Program-made: the position numbers and the translations under genes | Notes under the pieces: generated by a model | The model's input: only the letters and a program-made list of their open reading frames with translations | What the model was told of the DNA's origin: nothing | The model's database searches: none | Assembly: GCF_002224645.1 (NCBI RefSeq) | Contig: NZ_CP022121.1 | Location: 2,734,501-2,798,500 of the forward strand | DNA: 64,000 nt | Direction: 5' to 3' | Origin: Dehalobacterium formicoaceticum | GTDB lineage: Bacteria; Bacillota; Dehalobacteriia; Dehalobacteriales; Dehalobacteriaceae | Part shown: one piece after another, positions 24,240 through 55,623 of the stretch | Position numbering within the stretch: the first letter of the stretch is position 1 | How the letters are laid out: each line of letters opens with the position of its first letter

Positions 24240-25382
24240 CTAGGAAAGGCGGTTTTTAAAATCATAATAGCCGAATTCTTTAATTATTTTCAACCCGTCC
24301 CGATCATTAAAAACTCCAATGGAAGGCAGCTTAATGCCATTAAAGGTGTTGTTTTTTACCATGGTATAATGAGCCATATCGCAGAATACCAAAGGATCTC
24401 CTGCCTTTAAGGGTTGGGGAAAGGAATAATCCCCGATGATATCTCCTGCCAGACAAGTAGGACCGCCTAAACGATAAGTATAAGGAAAATCCCCCGGTAA
24501 GCCGCTGCCGATAATCTGTGGACGATAAGGCATTTCCAGCACATCCGGCATATGACAGGCAGCGGAGGTATCCAATATGGCAATATCCAGGCCATTATGA
24601 ACAAAATCAAGGACCCGGGCCACTAAATAACCGCAATTTAATACTACCGCTTCCCCCGGCTCCAGATAAACCTGCACCCCGTATTTTTCCCGGGCAAAGT
24701 GCAGGAATTTTTCCAGGGTTGCCAGATCATAATCAGGCCGGGTGATATGATGGCCTCCCCCCAGGTTAAGCCATTTCATCCCCTTCATAAAGGTACCGAA
24801 TTTTTCGTCAAAGACCTTTAATGTACGGGCTAAAACGTCTGAATTCTGCTCACAAAGGGTATGAAAATGAAGACCTTCGATGCCCTCCAAAAGCTCCGGT
24901 TCAAAATTAGCGAGAGTGACCCCTAGACGAGAGCCGGGAGCGGCAGGATCATAGATGCCATGCTCCTGCTCCGAATATTCCGGGTTGACCCGAAGACCGC
25001 AGGAGATAGGACGAGGCCCCTGCTTTACCCGATCTTTAAACCTTCTCCATTGAGCAAAAGAATTAAAGACGATATGGTCACAAATTTGCAGAATTTCGTC
25101 AAATTCATGGTCTAAATATGCCGGGGAAAAAATATGAACCTCCCCGCCCATTTCTTCATAGCCCAGCTTTGCCTCAAAAAGACCGCTGGCGGTTGTACCA
25201 TGAAGATATTTTTTGATCAACGGATATTCATAAAACATGGCAAAACTTTTTTGCGCCAGAAGAATCCGGCAGCCGGTCCGCTCTGTCAAACCCCGGAGAG
25301 TGGACAGGTTTTTTATCAGCAGCCTTTCATCCAGCAGGTAACAAGGGGTAGGGACTTTACTAAAATCAATTTCCTTGACCAT
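24240..25382 (-). CDS. nspC: Carboxynorspermidine/carboxyspermidine decarboxylase
   Basis: PLP-dependent alanine-racemase-fold decarboxylase that converts carboxyspermidine to spermidine. About 380 residues. VPTPCYLLDE, the PLP-Lys region RILLAQKSFAM, GLHFHTLCEQ, WLNLGGGHH, YLEPGEAVV and the C-terminal ACHMPDVLEMPYRP are typical NspC features. It begins four bases after the dehydrogenase stop, so the two enzymes form a unit. An upstream extension to 25481 lies within the dehydrogenase gene. Confidence 0.93.
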   Translation of the reverse strand: MVKEIDFSKVPTPCYLLDERLLIKNLSTLRGLTERTGCRILLAQKSFAMFYEYPLIKKYLHGTTASGLFEAKLGYEEMGGEVHIFSPAYLDHEFDEILQICDHIVFNSFAQWRRFKDRVKQGPRPISCGLRVNPEYSEQEHGIYDPAAPGSRLGVTLANFEPELLEGIEGLHFHTLCEQNSDVLARTLKVFDEKFGTFMKGMKWLNLGGGHHITRPDYDLATLEKFLHFAREKYGVQVYLEPGEAVVLNCGYLVARVLDFVHNGLDIAILDTSAACHMPDVLEMPYRPQIIGSGLPGDFPYTYRLGGPTCLAGDIIGDYSFPQPLKAGDPLVFCDMAHYTMVKNNTFNGIKLPSIGVFNDRDGLKIIKEFGYYDFKNRLS

Positions 25383-25386
25383 CTCT

Positions 25387-26586
25387 TTAATCAACCAATT
25401 CCGGATTGAAGCTTTCCTGCCAGGGTAAACCGAATTTATTAAGGGCGTCCATAAAAGGATCCGGATCAAATTCTTCCACATTAAAGACTCCGGGTTTCTT
25501 CCATTTTCCTGTCAGTACCATCATGGCGCCAATCATCGCCGGCACTCCGGTGGTATAGGAAATGGCCTGGGAACCAACCTCAGCATAGCTTTCTTCATGG
25601 TCGCAAACATTATATACATAGTAGCGCTTTTCCTGACCGTCCTTTAATCCCTGGAAAATACAACCGATGTTGGTTTTCCCTTTGGTCCGAGGCCCTAAGA
25701 AAGCCGGGTCAGGAAGTACGGCTTTCAGAAACTGGAGAGGAACAATTTTTTGTCCATTAAAGTCAATAGGATCAATGGAGGTCATTCCCACATTTTCCAG
25801 AACCCGCAGGTGGGTAAGGTAATTCTCGGAAAAAGTCATCCAGAACCGAATTTTTTTAATACCTTTGATGTTTAAGGCCAGCGACTCCATTTCCTCATGG
25901 TGCAGGAGATAGATATCTTTTTCCCCGATGACGGGGAAATCATAGACTCGTTTGATGGACATGGGTTCTGTTTCGATAAATTGGCCATTTTCAAAATAAC
26001 TGCCCTTAGCCGTAATCTCCCGAATATTGATTTCCGGGTTGAAGTTGGTGGCAAAGGGATAGCCATGATCTCCCGCATTGGCATCCAGGATGTCAATTTG
26101 ATGAATTTCATCAAAATAATGTTTTTGAGCAAAGGCAGAAAAAACGCCGGTGACTCCGGGATCAAAACCGCTGCCTAAAACAGCCGTAATGCCGGCCTCC
26201 CGGAATTTATCCCGGTAGGCCCATTGCCATTTATATTCAAATTTAGCCGTGTCCAAAGGCTCATAATTGGCGGTATCCAGATAATCCGTTTTGGTAGCCA
26301 GACAAGCATCCATAATCGTTAAATCCTGATAAGGCAAAGCCACATTGATGACGATGTCCGGTTTTTCTTTGCTAATAAGCTCTACCAGTTCCGCCACCTT
26401 GTCTGCATCCACCTGGGCGGTGGTGATTTTGGTTTTTCCCCCATCCAGCTTAGCTTTTAATGCTTCACATTTCGCTACAGTTCGGCTGGCGATACAAATT
26501 TCCTCAAAAACCTCCGGGTTTTGACAGCATTTATGAACTACCACGCTGCCTACGCCTCCGGCACCAATAATTAACGCTTTTCCCAT
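25387..26586 (-). CDS. Carboxy(nor)spermidine dehydrogenase (saccharopine-dehydrogenase-like)
   Basis: 399 residues with an N-terminal Rossmann fold (ALIIGAGGVGSVVVHKC) and the saccharopine-reductase C-terminal region (GSGFDPGVTGVF, ITAKGSYFENGQ). Next to nspC it is most likely the enzyme that condenses putrescine with aspartate semialdehyde to carboxyspermidine (or diaminopropane to carboxynorspermidine) using NADPH. The protein itself would be annotated only as saccharopine dehydrogenase; the role comes from the neighbour. Confidence 0.92.
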   Translation of the reverse strand: MGKALIIGAGGVGSVVVHKCCQNPEVFEEICIASRTVAKCEALKAKLDGGKTKITTAQVDADKVAELVELISKEKPDIVINVALPYQDLTIMDACLATKTDYLDTANYEPLDTAKFEYKWQWAYRDKFREAGITAVLGSGFDPGVTGVFSAFAQKHYFDEIHQIDILDANAGDHGYPFATNFNPEINIREITAKGSYFENGQFIETEPMSIKRVYDFPVIGEKDIYLLHHEEMESLALNIKGIKKIRFWMTFSENYLTHLRVLENVGMTSIDPIDFNGQKIVPLQFLKAVLPDPAFLGPRTKGKTNIGCIFQGLKDGQEKRYYVYNVCDHEESYAEVGSQAISYTTGVPAMIGAMMVLTGKWKKPGVFNVEEFDPDPFMDALNKFGLPWQESFNPELVD

Positions 26587-26619
26587 TGATTATCCCTCCG
26601 AATCATGATTCATTCTTCA

Positions 26620-26731
26620 TTAAATTCCAAGACTCCCCACTTCTATAAGTGGAAGTTACTATTTTTACTTCAGGTGAGGTAGATTCCCCCTCTGAAGCCT
26701 CGATATTCAGCTTTAGCTAAACGAGTTCACT
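26620..26731 (-). repeat. Triple-hairpin repeat, copy 2
   Basis: 112 bp, the most diverged copy. It starts at the speB stop codon (CAG TGA ACTCG) and ends 34 bases before the dehydrogenase start. The same three hairpins are kept in outline, but the first has lost a pair (GCTAAA) and the third reads CCACTTATAGAAGTGG. Confidence 0.88.
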
Positions 26732-27578
26732 GATCCAATGTTAATAATAATTCCCTTAACAGCTTACAGGCTAGTAACGTAGAGGCCCCGCTGGGATCGT
26801 AGACAGGGCATAATTCATTCATATCTACTCCCACCAAATTCAAGCCTTTTACCTGGGTAAACACTTTTAATAAATCCAAAAAGCCCACGCCCCCTGCCTC
26901 CGGAGTACCGGTGCCGGGTAAAACGGCAGGGTCTAAAACATCCAAATCCAAGGTCAGGTAAACCGGCTGATCCTTTACTTTTTCTACTACATGATCCACC
27001 TGGTTCAAGGTGAACTTTTCCATGAAAACATGGTCCTGTGCCCAGGAAAACTCCTCCCTATCACCGCTTCTGATCCCGAATTGAAAGATTCGCCCGTCCC
27101 CCACCAGGTCCCAGCAACGACGCATCACGGTAGCATGGGAAAGCTTTTCCCCTAAATAGTCCGATCTTAGATCTGTGTGGGCATCAAAATGGAGAATATG
27201 CAGCTGAGGATATTTTTGTAAGACCGCCCGCACCCCTCCCAAGGTTACTAAATGTTCTCCGCCGATCATCAGAGGCAGCTTATTATCATGAAGCACTTGG
27301 GCGGTATAATTTTCAATGACAGTCAGGGCTTTCTCCGGGTTTCCGAAGGCAAGCTCCAGGTCACCTCCGTCATAAATTTTCAGATCCGTGAGATCCCGAT
27401 CCAAATAAGGACTGTAGGTTTCAATGCTGTAGCTTTCATTGCGTATCGCAGCACTGGCAAAACGTGCGCCGGGGCGATAAGAGGTGGTGCTGTCAAAGGG
27501 AGCGCCGAAAAGAACAATCTTACTCTCCACATAGGTGCCGTCACAACCGATAAAGGTATGGAACTTTCTCTCATGCAT
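26727..27578 (-). CDS. speB: Agmatinase
   Basis: Hydrolyses agmatine to putrescine and urea. 283 residues of the arginase/ureohydrolase fold, with binuclear manganese ligands in GGEHLVT, HFDAHTDLRSDY and TLDLDVLDPAVLPGTGTPE. It overlaps speE by 8 bases. Its stop codon lies in a repeat element, and the C-terminus appears full length. Confidence 0.95.
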   Translation of the reverse strand: MHERKFHTFIGCDGTYVESKIVLFGAPFDSTTSYRPGARFASAAIRNESYSIETYSPYLDRDLTDLKIYDGGDLELAFGNPEKALTVIENYTAQVLHDNKLPLMIGGEHLVTLGGVRAVLQKYPQLHILHFDAHTDLRSDYLGEKLSHATVMRRCWDLVGDGRIFQFGIRSGDREEFSWAQDHVFMEKFTLNQVDHVVEKVKDQPVYLTLDLDVLDPAVLPGTGTPEAGGVGFLDLLKVFTQVKGLNLVGVDMNELCPVYDPSGASTLLACKLLRELLLTLDQ

Positions 27579-28419
27579 TGGCCAACAGCTCCTTTACATA
27601 GTTGGGCAGGGCAAAAGAGCCTTGGTGAATTTCAGTATTATAATATTTGGTTTTAAGACCCAAACCATTCCACCAATCCTGATCGATATGGGTGACCGGG
27701 TCGTATTTTTTTGAAGCAAATCCAAACAGCCAGTGTCCCGAAGAATAGGTGGGGATATGAATCTGATAAACCTTACTGATGGGGAAAATGGATTTTATTT
27801 TCTGATGGGCTCTCTGCATGGCATAAGCATCCCTTGGGTAATAAGGACTCTCATGTTGGTTGATCAAGATGCCATCTTCACTTAAGGCTTTGAAACAATT
27901 TCCGTAAAACTCCTTGGTAAAAAGACCCTCACCCGGTCCAAAAGGATCCGTTGAATCTACAATAATTAAATCATATTCATTTTGTTTGGTTCGCACAAAT
28001 TTGAGTCCGTCCTCGTAGTAGATATTGACTCTGGGGTCCTTTAAACGGCAGGAGATATGGGGCAGGTATTCCTTGCATACATCTACCACCATTTCATCAA
28101 TTTCCACCATATCAATATGCTCCAAACTTTCGTAACGAGTTAATTCCCGAATCGTGCCCCCATCTCCGGCGCCAATCACCAGCACCTTTTTAATTTTGGG
28201 ATTGACGGCAAGGGGTGGGTGCACAATCATTTCATGATAAATAAATTCATCTTTTTCTGTCAGCATCAAGTAACCGTCCAAAACAAGGATTCTTCCGAAT
28301 TCATAAGACTCAAAGACATCAATCCGTTGGAACTCACTTTGCATGCTTACCAATTGTTTGTCGATTTTAATGGAGAAACGTACCATTTCCGTATGATATT
28401 CTGTGTACCATAAGTCCAT
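27571..28419 (-). CDS. speE: Spermidine synthase (polyamine aminopropyltransferase)
   Basis: Transfers aminopropyl from decarboxylated SAM to putrescine. 282 residues. MDLWYTEYHTE start, VIGAGDGGTIRELTRY (SAM site), EIDEMVVDVCKEYLPH, IIVDSTDPFGPGEGLFTKEFY (catalytic Asp). GGAGG lies upstream, and the start directly follows the speA stop. Its cosubstrate requires SpeD, and no speD is in this window. Confidence 0.95.
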   Translation of the reverse strand: MDLWYTEYHTEMVRFSIKIDKQLVSMQSEFQRIDVFESYEFGRILVLDGYLMLTEKDEFIYHEMIVHPPLAVNPKIKKVLVIGAGDGGTIRELTRYESLEHIDMVEIDEMVVDVCKEYLPHISCRLKDPRVNIYYEDGLKFVRTKQNEYDLIIVDSTDPFGPGEGLFTKEFYGNCFKALSEDGILINQHESPYYPRDAYAMQRAHQKIKSIFPISKVYQIHIPTYSSGHWLFGFASKKYDPVTHIDQDWWNGLGLKTKYYNTEIHQGSFALPNYVKELLANA

Positions 28420-29880
28420 TTATATATCCTCCACAACATTGATATTTTCTATCTCCATATCCTGGGTTCCTGTTAAAAAAGAACCTTTTTCTTTGGCATA
28501 GGAAATATAGGCTAAAACCTCCTCAGAGATTTTTTCTCCCGGCGCCAAAATGGGAATGCCCGGTGGATAACACATGACAAATTCGCCGCTGATGCAGCCT
28601 TTGCTTTGCTCTAAAGGAACAGCATGTGTTTTGCTGTAAAATGCATGTTGAGGTGCTAAAACCACGTCCGGTTTAATGTATTCGTGGTCAAACATGCCAC
28701 GGTTATCACCTGAATACAAGCGTTTAATTTCTGATAAAGCAGAAATCAAACGTTCAATTTCCAATGCCCGATCACCGGCAGAAATGATGGCCAGAATATT
28801 TCCAATGTCCCCAAACTCGATTTGAATCCCATACTCATCCCGTAATAAGTCATAGACCTCAATGCCGGCCAGACCGATTTTTCGCGTATGGATAGAAAGT
28901 TTGGTGATATCAAAGTCAAAAACGGTATCATGATTGATCAATTCCCGGGAAAAAGCATAATAACCGGTCAGTTTATTAATTTCATCCCGGGCATATTGGG
29001 CAAATTGCACTGTTTTACGAAACATTTCCTTGCCATTCAAACTAAGATTTTTCCGGGCAATATCCAGGGATGAAAGGAGCAAATAGGAAGCGCTGGTGGT
29101 TTGGGTTAAATTAATAATTTGCCGCACGTAATCCGGATTAACTTTCGGTCCGCTTAACAAAATGGAGCTCTGGGTCAGGGAACCTCCCGTTTTATGCATA
29201 CTCACTGCCGCCATGTCTGCCCCTGCTGCCATAGCGGAAACCGGTAAATCTTCTCCAAAATAAAAATGGGTTCCATGGGCTTCGTCCGCTAAGACCATCA
29301 TGCCAAAATTATGGGCCAACGTCACAATTTCCTGTAAATTAGAACAGATCCCGTAATATGTTGGGTTATTCACCAAAATTGCCTTGGCATCCGGATGAGT
29401 TAAAATGGCTTCCTTAACATCGTCCACCGACATGCCTAAAGGAATTCCCAGTTCTTTATTTAATCCCGGGTTTATGTAGATCGGTATCGCCCCGCAGATT
29501 ACCAAAGCATTTATGGCGCTCCGGTGAACATTTCTGGGCATGATAATTTTATCTCCGGCCTTGCAGCAGGACATAATCATCGCCTGAACTGCCCCGGTGG
29601 TACCATTTACCATAAAAAATGAGTGGTTGGCCCCAAAAGCTTCTGCTGCCAGTTCCTGGGCTTCTTTAATAACGGACATTGGATGGCTGAGGTTGTCCAG
29701 GGGCTTCATGGAATTCACATCTAATTTTAAACAATTTGCCCCTAAAAAATCAGTTAATTCTTTATTGCCCCGACCCCCTTTGTGACCGGGCACATCAAAA
29801 GGAACAACGCGATTTTTCATGTGTTTTTCTAAGGCTTCATAAATAGGTGCATTATGTTGTGTCAGCATTTTTTCTATCAT
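28420..29880 (-). CDS. speA: Biosynthetic arginine decarboxylase (fold type I, Orn/Lys/Arg family)
   Basis: PLP enzyme that forms agmatine from arginine, given agmatinase downstream; the family also includes lysine and ornithine decarboxylases. 486 residues. VPFDVPGHKGG near the N-terminus, SMHKTGGSLTQSS carrying the PLP lysine, VLADEAHGTHFYFGE, and the C-terminal domain with CYPPGIPILAPGE. The chosen ATG follows a GGGGC-type site. First gene of the polyamine operon. Confidence 0.92.
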   Translation of the reverse strand: MIEKMLTQHNAPIYEALEKHMKNRVVPFDVPGHKGGRGNKELTDFLGANCLKLDVNSMKPLDNLSHPMSVIKEAQELAAEAFGANHSFFMVNGTTGAVQAMIMSCCKAGDKIIMPRNVHRSAINALVICGAIPIYINPGLNKELGIPLGMSVDDVKEAILTHPDAKAILVNNPTYYGICSNLQEIVTLAHNFGMMVLADEAHGTHFYFGEDLPVSAMAAGADMAAVSMHKTGGSLTQSSILLSGPKVNPDYVRQIINLTQTTSASYLLLSSLDIARKNLSLNGKEMFRKTVQFAQYARDEINKLTGYYAFSRELINHDTVFDFDITKLSIHTRKIGLAGIEVYDLLRDEYGIQIEFGDIGNILAIISAGDRALEIERLISALSEIKRLYSGDNRGMFDHEYIKPDVVLAPQHAFYSKTHAVPLEQSKGCISGEFVMCYPPGIPILAPGEKISEEVLAYISYAKEKGSFLTGTQDMEIENINVVEDI

Positions 29881-30158
29881 CACAGCCCCTGTCTTTTGAA
29901 ATTGCGGATTCAATATAGCATTTTTAGACAAAAAATGCAATCACAATTGATTCTTTGGGGTTCATCTTTGGATGGGCGAAATATCATATTCATATTTCGA
30001 TAAACAAAAATTTAATCCTTTAAATTCTGCTCAATTACCGGTAATTTAAACAATTCGTCGCAGTTAGTTATCGGATAAAATGGGTATTGCATAACAAAGG
30101 GTCATTATGTCAAAATATATGATAGTACTTGATTAAGAAATAAGAAAGGATTGATCAT
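29881..30158. other. Divergent intergenic region
   Basis: About 280 bases between speA (minus) and the selenoprotein gene (plus). It holds a perfect 8 bp inverted repeat CGAAATAT/ATATTTCG at 29977-29999, a possible operator on the speA side, and an AAAGGA ribosome site for the plus-strand gene. No strong promoter consensus was recognised. Confidence 0.5.
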
Positions 30159-30764
30159 ATGCACCCCCTCAAAATCGTGCTCTTTTCAGATTATGCCTGA
30201 CCCTTTTGCTACATAGGGAAAGGTATTCTCTACAAGCTGCAAAAGAAATATCCTTTGGAAGTACAGTGGGTGGGATACGAACTCCATCCCGAAACCCCTA
30301 AAGAAGGGATCTGGCTTAGAGATCAGTTCCCGAATGCTGATCTTGACATGATGAAAAGGAATTTAAATCTGGCCGGTAAGCCCTATGATGTGGTATTTAA
30401 TAAAATGGAAAGAAGCTCTAATACCAAATTGGCGTTAGCAGCCACAGAATTTGCCCGGGAAAAGGGGAAACTATGGGAGTTCCAGGATGTTGTTTATCAA
30501 GCTTATTTCGGGCTGGGAGAAGACATTGGGCAGTTGGATATTGTATTAGCATCTGCGCAGAAAATCGGCTTGGATGTTGGACAACTAGAGAAAGCCCTCC
30601 AGGAAGAAAAATATACGTCTATTCTTAAAGAATCCCATGCATTAGGCGAAAAATATCATGTCGAGGGCATACCCACCTTTATTTTTGAGAACGGAAAAAG
30701 AATTTTTGGCGCCGAGCGTTATGAGATTTTTGTCAAAGTGCTTAAAGAGCTTTCGGAAAGATAA
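30159..30764 (+). CDS. DsbA/FrnE-family selenoprotein with UxxC active site
   Basis: Predicted thiol-disulfide (selenol) oxidoreductase of the thioredoxin fold. Reading from the ATG (AAAGGA eight bases upstream) gives MHPLKIVLFSDYA, then in-frame TGA at codon 14 (30198-30200), then PFCYIGKGILYKLQKKYP and on without interruption to 30764, 201 residues in all. FrnE-like proteins normally have FSDYxCPFCYIGK there, so the TGA replaces the first active-site Cys of CxxC. The helical insert and the cis-Pro loop VEGIPTFIF are intact. A SECIS-like hairpin follows at the right distance. This suggests selenocysteine and not a nonsense mutation. It has no signal peptide, so it is cytosolic. Physiological substrate unknown. 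The only clear plus-strand gene in the window. Confidence 0.87.
30203..30245 (+). promoter_or_regulatory. Bacterial SECIS-like hairpin inside the selenoprotein gene
   Basis: A lower stem CTTTTGC/GCAAAAG (7 bp) and an upper stem TAGGGA/TCTCTA (one G-U) present the 7-base apical loop AAGGUAU. The loop begins 20 bases after the UGA, and its GGU falls at bases 22-24. In the E. coli fdhF element the loop AGGUCU is bound by SelB at about this distance, so position and loop sequence both fit. Confidence 0.78.
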
Positions 30765-51972: not shown

Positions 51973-52003
51973 GTAATAATAGATATTTTAAATGACGAAA
52001 GAT

Positions 52004-52187
52004 AAAACCCCACATATGTCGTAGAACCGATGTTTTGAACCTGCCTCAGCAGGTGGGTGCCCTCCTGGTTATCTTCTAGGTCCTCTTACGAGAGAGGCTG
52101 AAAGTCCATGATCAGAGTCAGGCTCCCGAAAATAAAGTGTTGGAACAAAACTATTCGGTAGAAACGTGCATCGCAGGGTTTTTCTTT
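52004..52187 (-). ncRNA. ssrS: 6S RNA candidate (SsrS)
   Basis: About 180 bases downstream of aspS (in Bacillus the 6S-1 gene bsrA is also next to aspS). The ends AAAACCCTGCGATG and TATGTGGGGTTTT pair to close the molecule. A second stem, ACCGA..GTTTTG with CAAAAC.TCGGT, leads to a large open region. A hairpin CCTGC/GCAGG sits in CACCCACCTGC...GCAGGTTCAA, similar to the conserved 3' side of 6S RNA. It has its own sigma-A promoter. The match is by structure and context and was not modelled. Confidence 0.68.
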
Positions 52188-55357: not shown

Positions 55358-55623
55358 AAAAAAACTCCCCCCACTGACGAATTATCATCAGGGACGAGAG
55401 TTGTTCCCGCGGTACCACCCTAATTGGATCAGAAAATCCCACTTTTATCGTCTGATAACGGGTAGATCCCGGGCATTCTTTAAATAAATGCCAGCTCCTG
55501 GGTGTTCCTTCAGCAGCAGTTTTTAGAAAAGCTTTCAGTCACGTCTTTTCCTCCCTGTAAAAACAAATCCTGTCTGAAAATCCCATTCTTCGCTTTTTAA
55601 TGCCATACTTCATGGTATTACAC
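55358..55623 (-). promoter_or_regulatory. T-box leader controlling hisS-aspS
   Basis: The conserved T-box GGTGGTACCGCGGGAACA is followed by a terminator hairpin (CTCTCGTCCCTGA...TCAGTGGGGGGAG) and seven T's directly before hisS. The T-box sequence can pair with the 5' arm region to form the antiterminator when uncharged tRNA binds. In stem I the run GGAACACC places CAC (His) after GAA at 55502-55504, the likely specifier, consistent with hisS. Confidence 0.9.

Follow-up and report, generated by a model that had tools for sequence, protein, structure and literature searches.

A gene in the window, by which we mean the whole 64,000-nucleotide stretch of Dehalobacterium formicoaceticum DNA analysed here, carries a single in-frame TGA that is almost certainly read as selenocysteine (Sec), an active-site residue of a redox enzyme. 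With high confidence, the product is predicted to be a soluble, probably cytosolic thiol-disulfide oxidoreductase of the FrnE type, in which Sec replaces the attacking Cys (giving UPFC) and would be inserted via SelB and a SECIS hairpin. It is a clean selenoprotein candidate in a dichloromethane-fermenting anaerobe. The coding features are the following:

30143..30150, + strand: AGAAAGGA, a ribosome-binding site-like sequence 8 bases upstream of the ATG, read directly from the sequence.
30159..30764, + strand: complete coding frame of the putative FrnE/DsbA-type selenoprotein, stop codon included, based on translation with TGA=U, the Pfam DSBA match and full-length orthologues.
30198..30200, + strand: the in-frame UGA, almost certainly read as Sec, at position 1 of the U-P-F-C motif, based on the codon found at this place in relatives.

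When TGA is translated as U, the frame 30159-30764 yields 201 residues with its only TGA at codon 14. The N-terminal part of the product reads MHPLKIVLFSDYA-U-PFCYIGKG..., and the frame is intact on both sides, just as the sequence-only reading had claimed in placing one TGA exactly at the first Cys of a CPFC site. A mechanical scan of the window for frames split by a TGA found eight, and only this one has a redox motif at the TGA. The search for further hidden selenoproteins in the 64-kb window thus gave seven other TGA-split frames, none of them with such a motif.

Without recoding, the ordinary open reading frame that is left encodes 169 amino acids from a TTG at 30255 and loses the active site, which bears out the expectation of an ordinary gene start near that position. 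Routine gene calling would therefore give a 169-amino-acid protein lacking the active site, and many relatives are probably misannotated in the same way. It could be argued that this shorter protein is translated alone and that the upstream part is irrelevant, a reading that draws on the mechanically found frame from TTG 30255. It is barely tenable, as both FSDYA (before the TGA) and PFCYIGKG (between the TGA and 30255) are conserved in relatives, and a Shine-Dalgarno-like site lies ahead of the ATG at 30159.

The main evidence for Sec comes from relatives, which were sought in 398 Bacillota genomes and in one order of 113 genomes. Many matches had one TGA in the matched stretch. In all 34 extracted genes, that is, the gene in the window and 33 relatives, several of them far apart, the TGA falls at the same codon, and the aligned codon in 96 homologues is TGT or TGC. 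The Cys expected at position 14 of FrnE homologues was thereby confirmed, including in the genome's own Cys paralogue (CPFC, at 3479348). Two extra loci, L112 and L162, likewise read UPFC, L112 with a second stop (TAG), and a further locus, L153, has a TAA close to or at the end of the stretch that matched. A chance TGA is disfavoured because at least 33 relatives have TGA at the same codon, which we regard as strong evidence. Purifying selection acts on the relatives, with a dN/dS of about 0.07-0.17 in close pairs of Sec genes; in the pair that the window's gene forms with its nearest relative, synonymous sites are saturated and dN/dS is not computable. There is only a very slim chance that a Cys-type FrnE gene has here acquired a nonsense codon, whether as a pseudogene or through a sequencing error. 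One stop codon is indeed the sole difference from an ordinary FrnE frame, but that frame has no other lesion, 33 relatives share the TGA, strong purifying selection acts on those relatives, and the hairpin described below is maintained by compensatory changes.

The putative Sec insertion signal lies directly 3' of the UGA and is organized as follows:

30203..30245, + strand: SECIS hairpin, a fold within the published model limits, with an inner stem 99.4% paired and a lower stem 59.8% paired among relatives.
30214-30220 paired with 30226-30232: SECIS upper stem.
30203-30209 paired with 30239-30245: SECIS lower stem.
30221-30225: SECIS apical loop, AGGUA, or AAGGUAU when the closing A-U is left open.

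For the RNA 3' of the UGA, the folding energy is -13.4 kcal/mol (z -2.35), and 7 of 200 shuffled sequences fold equally well. When this region was set against a bacterial SECIS model, the hairpin fitted, satisfying four of four published constraints. The constraint test is permissive, since 51 of 400 random window positions (about 13%) pass too, and 11 of the 34 Sec genes fail a strict version of the model; we rejected the model as stand-alone proof for this permissiveness.

Comparison among relatives is more informative about the stem-loop itself. In a set of 27 distinct sequences, 99.4% of the cells for the six inner-stem pairs hold a standard base pair. This figure is biased, since the window itself supplied the structure; double changes, which occur at three of the pairs, are the cleaner evidence. 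Compared with most relatives, the window differs at two inner-stem pairs, each time with compensation: A-U replaces C-G at one pair, and G-C replaces C-G at the other. The structure derived from the window beats every slid version on all measures. In the same 27 sequences, only 59.8% of lower-stem cells are paired. The two-part hairpin with apical loop AAGGUAU starting 20 bases downstream, as first proposed, accordingly stands as a fold and in its conserved inner stem-loop, but its lower stem is poorly conserved. Folding z-scores separate Sec genes from Cys homologues (-1.57 vs 0.03, p about 3e-11), with the reservation that related sequences are not independent. The protein just after the active site also differs between the two groups: residues 20-23 are GKGI in most Sec genes and GKRR in Cys homologues. 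The GG of the GKG codons falls inside the SECIS apical loop, and the RNA hairpin may therefore shape the protein at these residues.

The genome of D. formicoaceticum has all four of selA, selB, selC and selD, which the sequence-only reading had singled out as the machinery to look for. A selB match has an E-value of 2.2e-107, and a 466-amino-acid open reading frame immediately before it reads by eye as SelA. The tRNA-Sec (selC) scores 75.7 bits, and ARAGORN concurs. The selD gene (806763-807683, E 1.3e-112) also has a TGA within its frame (AAG-U-AAKIG); this Sec form of SelD is known and serves as a useful internal control.

In a tree of 64 rows, the gene in the window falls within a group of 26 rows, all of them Sec (SH-aLRT 90), and this clade spans several families. 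The window's gene stands there beside a gene from another class (98). Matches were found in none of the 42 other genomes of the window's class that were examined, and for this reason horizontal acquisition is favoured: the gene was probably acquired from another Bacillota class, with loss elsewhere as a further possibility. The Sec/Cys label changes five times on the tree, at least two of them by well-supported branches, and therefore Sec has been gained or lost more than once. Sec FrnE-like genes also occur outside the window's clade (L161, L163, L108, L110, L111, L104, L105 and L106). Several of these have other loop sequences and a poorer fit to the inner stem, which may point to repeated gain or loss of Sec.

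As for the protein, it matches the Pfam domain DSBA (PF01323) at 8.5e-32, with 110.9 bits vs a cut-off of 25.6, and UPFC supplies the UxxC motif. It falls below the cut-off of every NCBIfam model. The columns invariant in the alignment are D11, U/C14, P15, C17, P172 and G184, of which P172 presumably corresponds to the cis-proline beside the active site in thioredoxin folds. The best match among solved structures by sequence is FrnE (1.2e-15), and the predicted model (mean pLDDT 97.2) is also closest to FrnE in fold (TM 0.85-0.90); the original assignment to the FrnE type was thus right on both counts. The N-terminus of the model opens directly with the first strand, which fits an FrnE type without an export signal. 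Next after FrnE among the structural neighbours come kappa GST and HCCA isomerase, and the product might accordingly be a selenoprotein of the transferase or isomerase kind and not a disulfide oxidoreductase. This is quite improbable, given that kappa GST lies behind FrnE in sequence (3.7e-4) as well as in fold, and that the U-x-x-C pair is retained.

A disulfide oxidoreductase of the FrnE type would be made and would act as follows: SelB with Sec-tRNA(Sec) would recognise the stem-loop, whose apical loop starts 20 bases downstream of the UGA, and codon 14 would be read as Sec. The selenolate of Sec14 would attack a substrate disulfide to form a mixed Se-S bond, which Cys17 would resolve, leaving an intramolecular selenenylsulfide. 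The enzyme would then be regenerated, probably by the thioredoxin/thioredoxin reductase system as its likely partner. We infer both the disulfide reductase direction and the substrate; the cytosolic selenol-thiol oxidoreductase originally proposed is supported by the evidence at hand, all of it from sequence. The neighbourhood was searched for a clue to the pathway, and nothing except the gene itself is widely common to the 17 regions compared. In the window, a run of genes on the opposite strand (24240-29940, - strand) adjoins the selenoprotein gene and reads by eye as polyamine biosynthesis, with carboxynorspermidine decarboxylase-, saccharopine dehydrogenase-, agmatinase-, spermidine synthase- and arginine/lysine decarboxylase-like members. 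Further along, Rfam matches mark a 6S RNA at 52003-52182 (- strand, 85 bits) and a T-box leader at 55387-55599 (- strand, 99 bits).

By both sequence and fold, the best solved match is FrnE of Deinococcus radiodurans (DR_0659; 5cnw and others), which has CPWC at the same place and hence Cys where the window has Sec. This protein has been proposed to act as a disulfide reductase in the cytoplasm, with electrons reaching it through E. coli TrxR (PMC8945050). Its C-terminal CX4C tail is absent from the window protein, which has no Cys after residue 17, and the regeneration of the latter must therefore differ in detail. The tail is frequent in FrnE and not defining: some accepted FrnE proteins are without it (PMC8945050). 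Among the proteins compared here, it is absent from all 34 Sec members, and 68 of the 96 Cys homologues have it. It is also missing from nearby Cys relatives, and Sec as the cause of its loss was set aside, as clade membership explains the absence equally well. One could go further and regard Sec-FrnE as a distinct anaerobic-Bacillota branch without the tail, which would depend on the more reactive selenolate together with an external reductase and would serve a purpose different from oxidative-damage repair; we consider this unlikely, if conceivable.

The DsbG-like/Rcas_1661 selenoprotein (NF041057) is likewise thioredoxin-like with UxxC. Membership in that family was rejected, because the match covers only the C-terminal part and scores 35 bits, short of the 190 required. 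In the literature on FrnE and selenium, and on Sec in D. formicoaceticum, the search turned up no paper naming the gene. The closest described group is the DsbA-like selenoprotein family (form 1), which has in common with it the Pfam domain PF01323, U-x-x-C and a SECIS after the UGA; the comparison, made by description and not by aligned published sequences, gave no separating feature. A 2005 study of the Sargasso Sea reported DsbA-like selenoproteins with UxxC and placed them in COG2761 (PMC1088965), the group to which frnE (DR0659) is assigned (PMC1978522). Desulfotomaculum reducens was listed with one such protein in 2006 (PMC1794560), a 2016 count gave 45 in 41 organisms (PMC5029168), and a 2026 review lists the family as predicted only (PMC13188914). 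The gene in the window was read correctly and genuinely belongs to this already described selenoprotein family; what is new here is this member, the supported clade across several families and the likely horizontal arrival.
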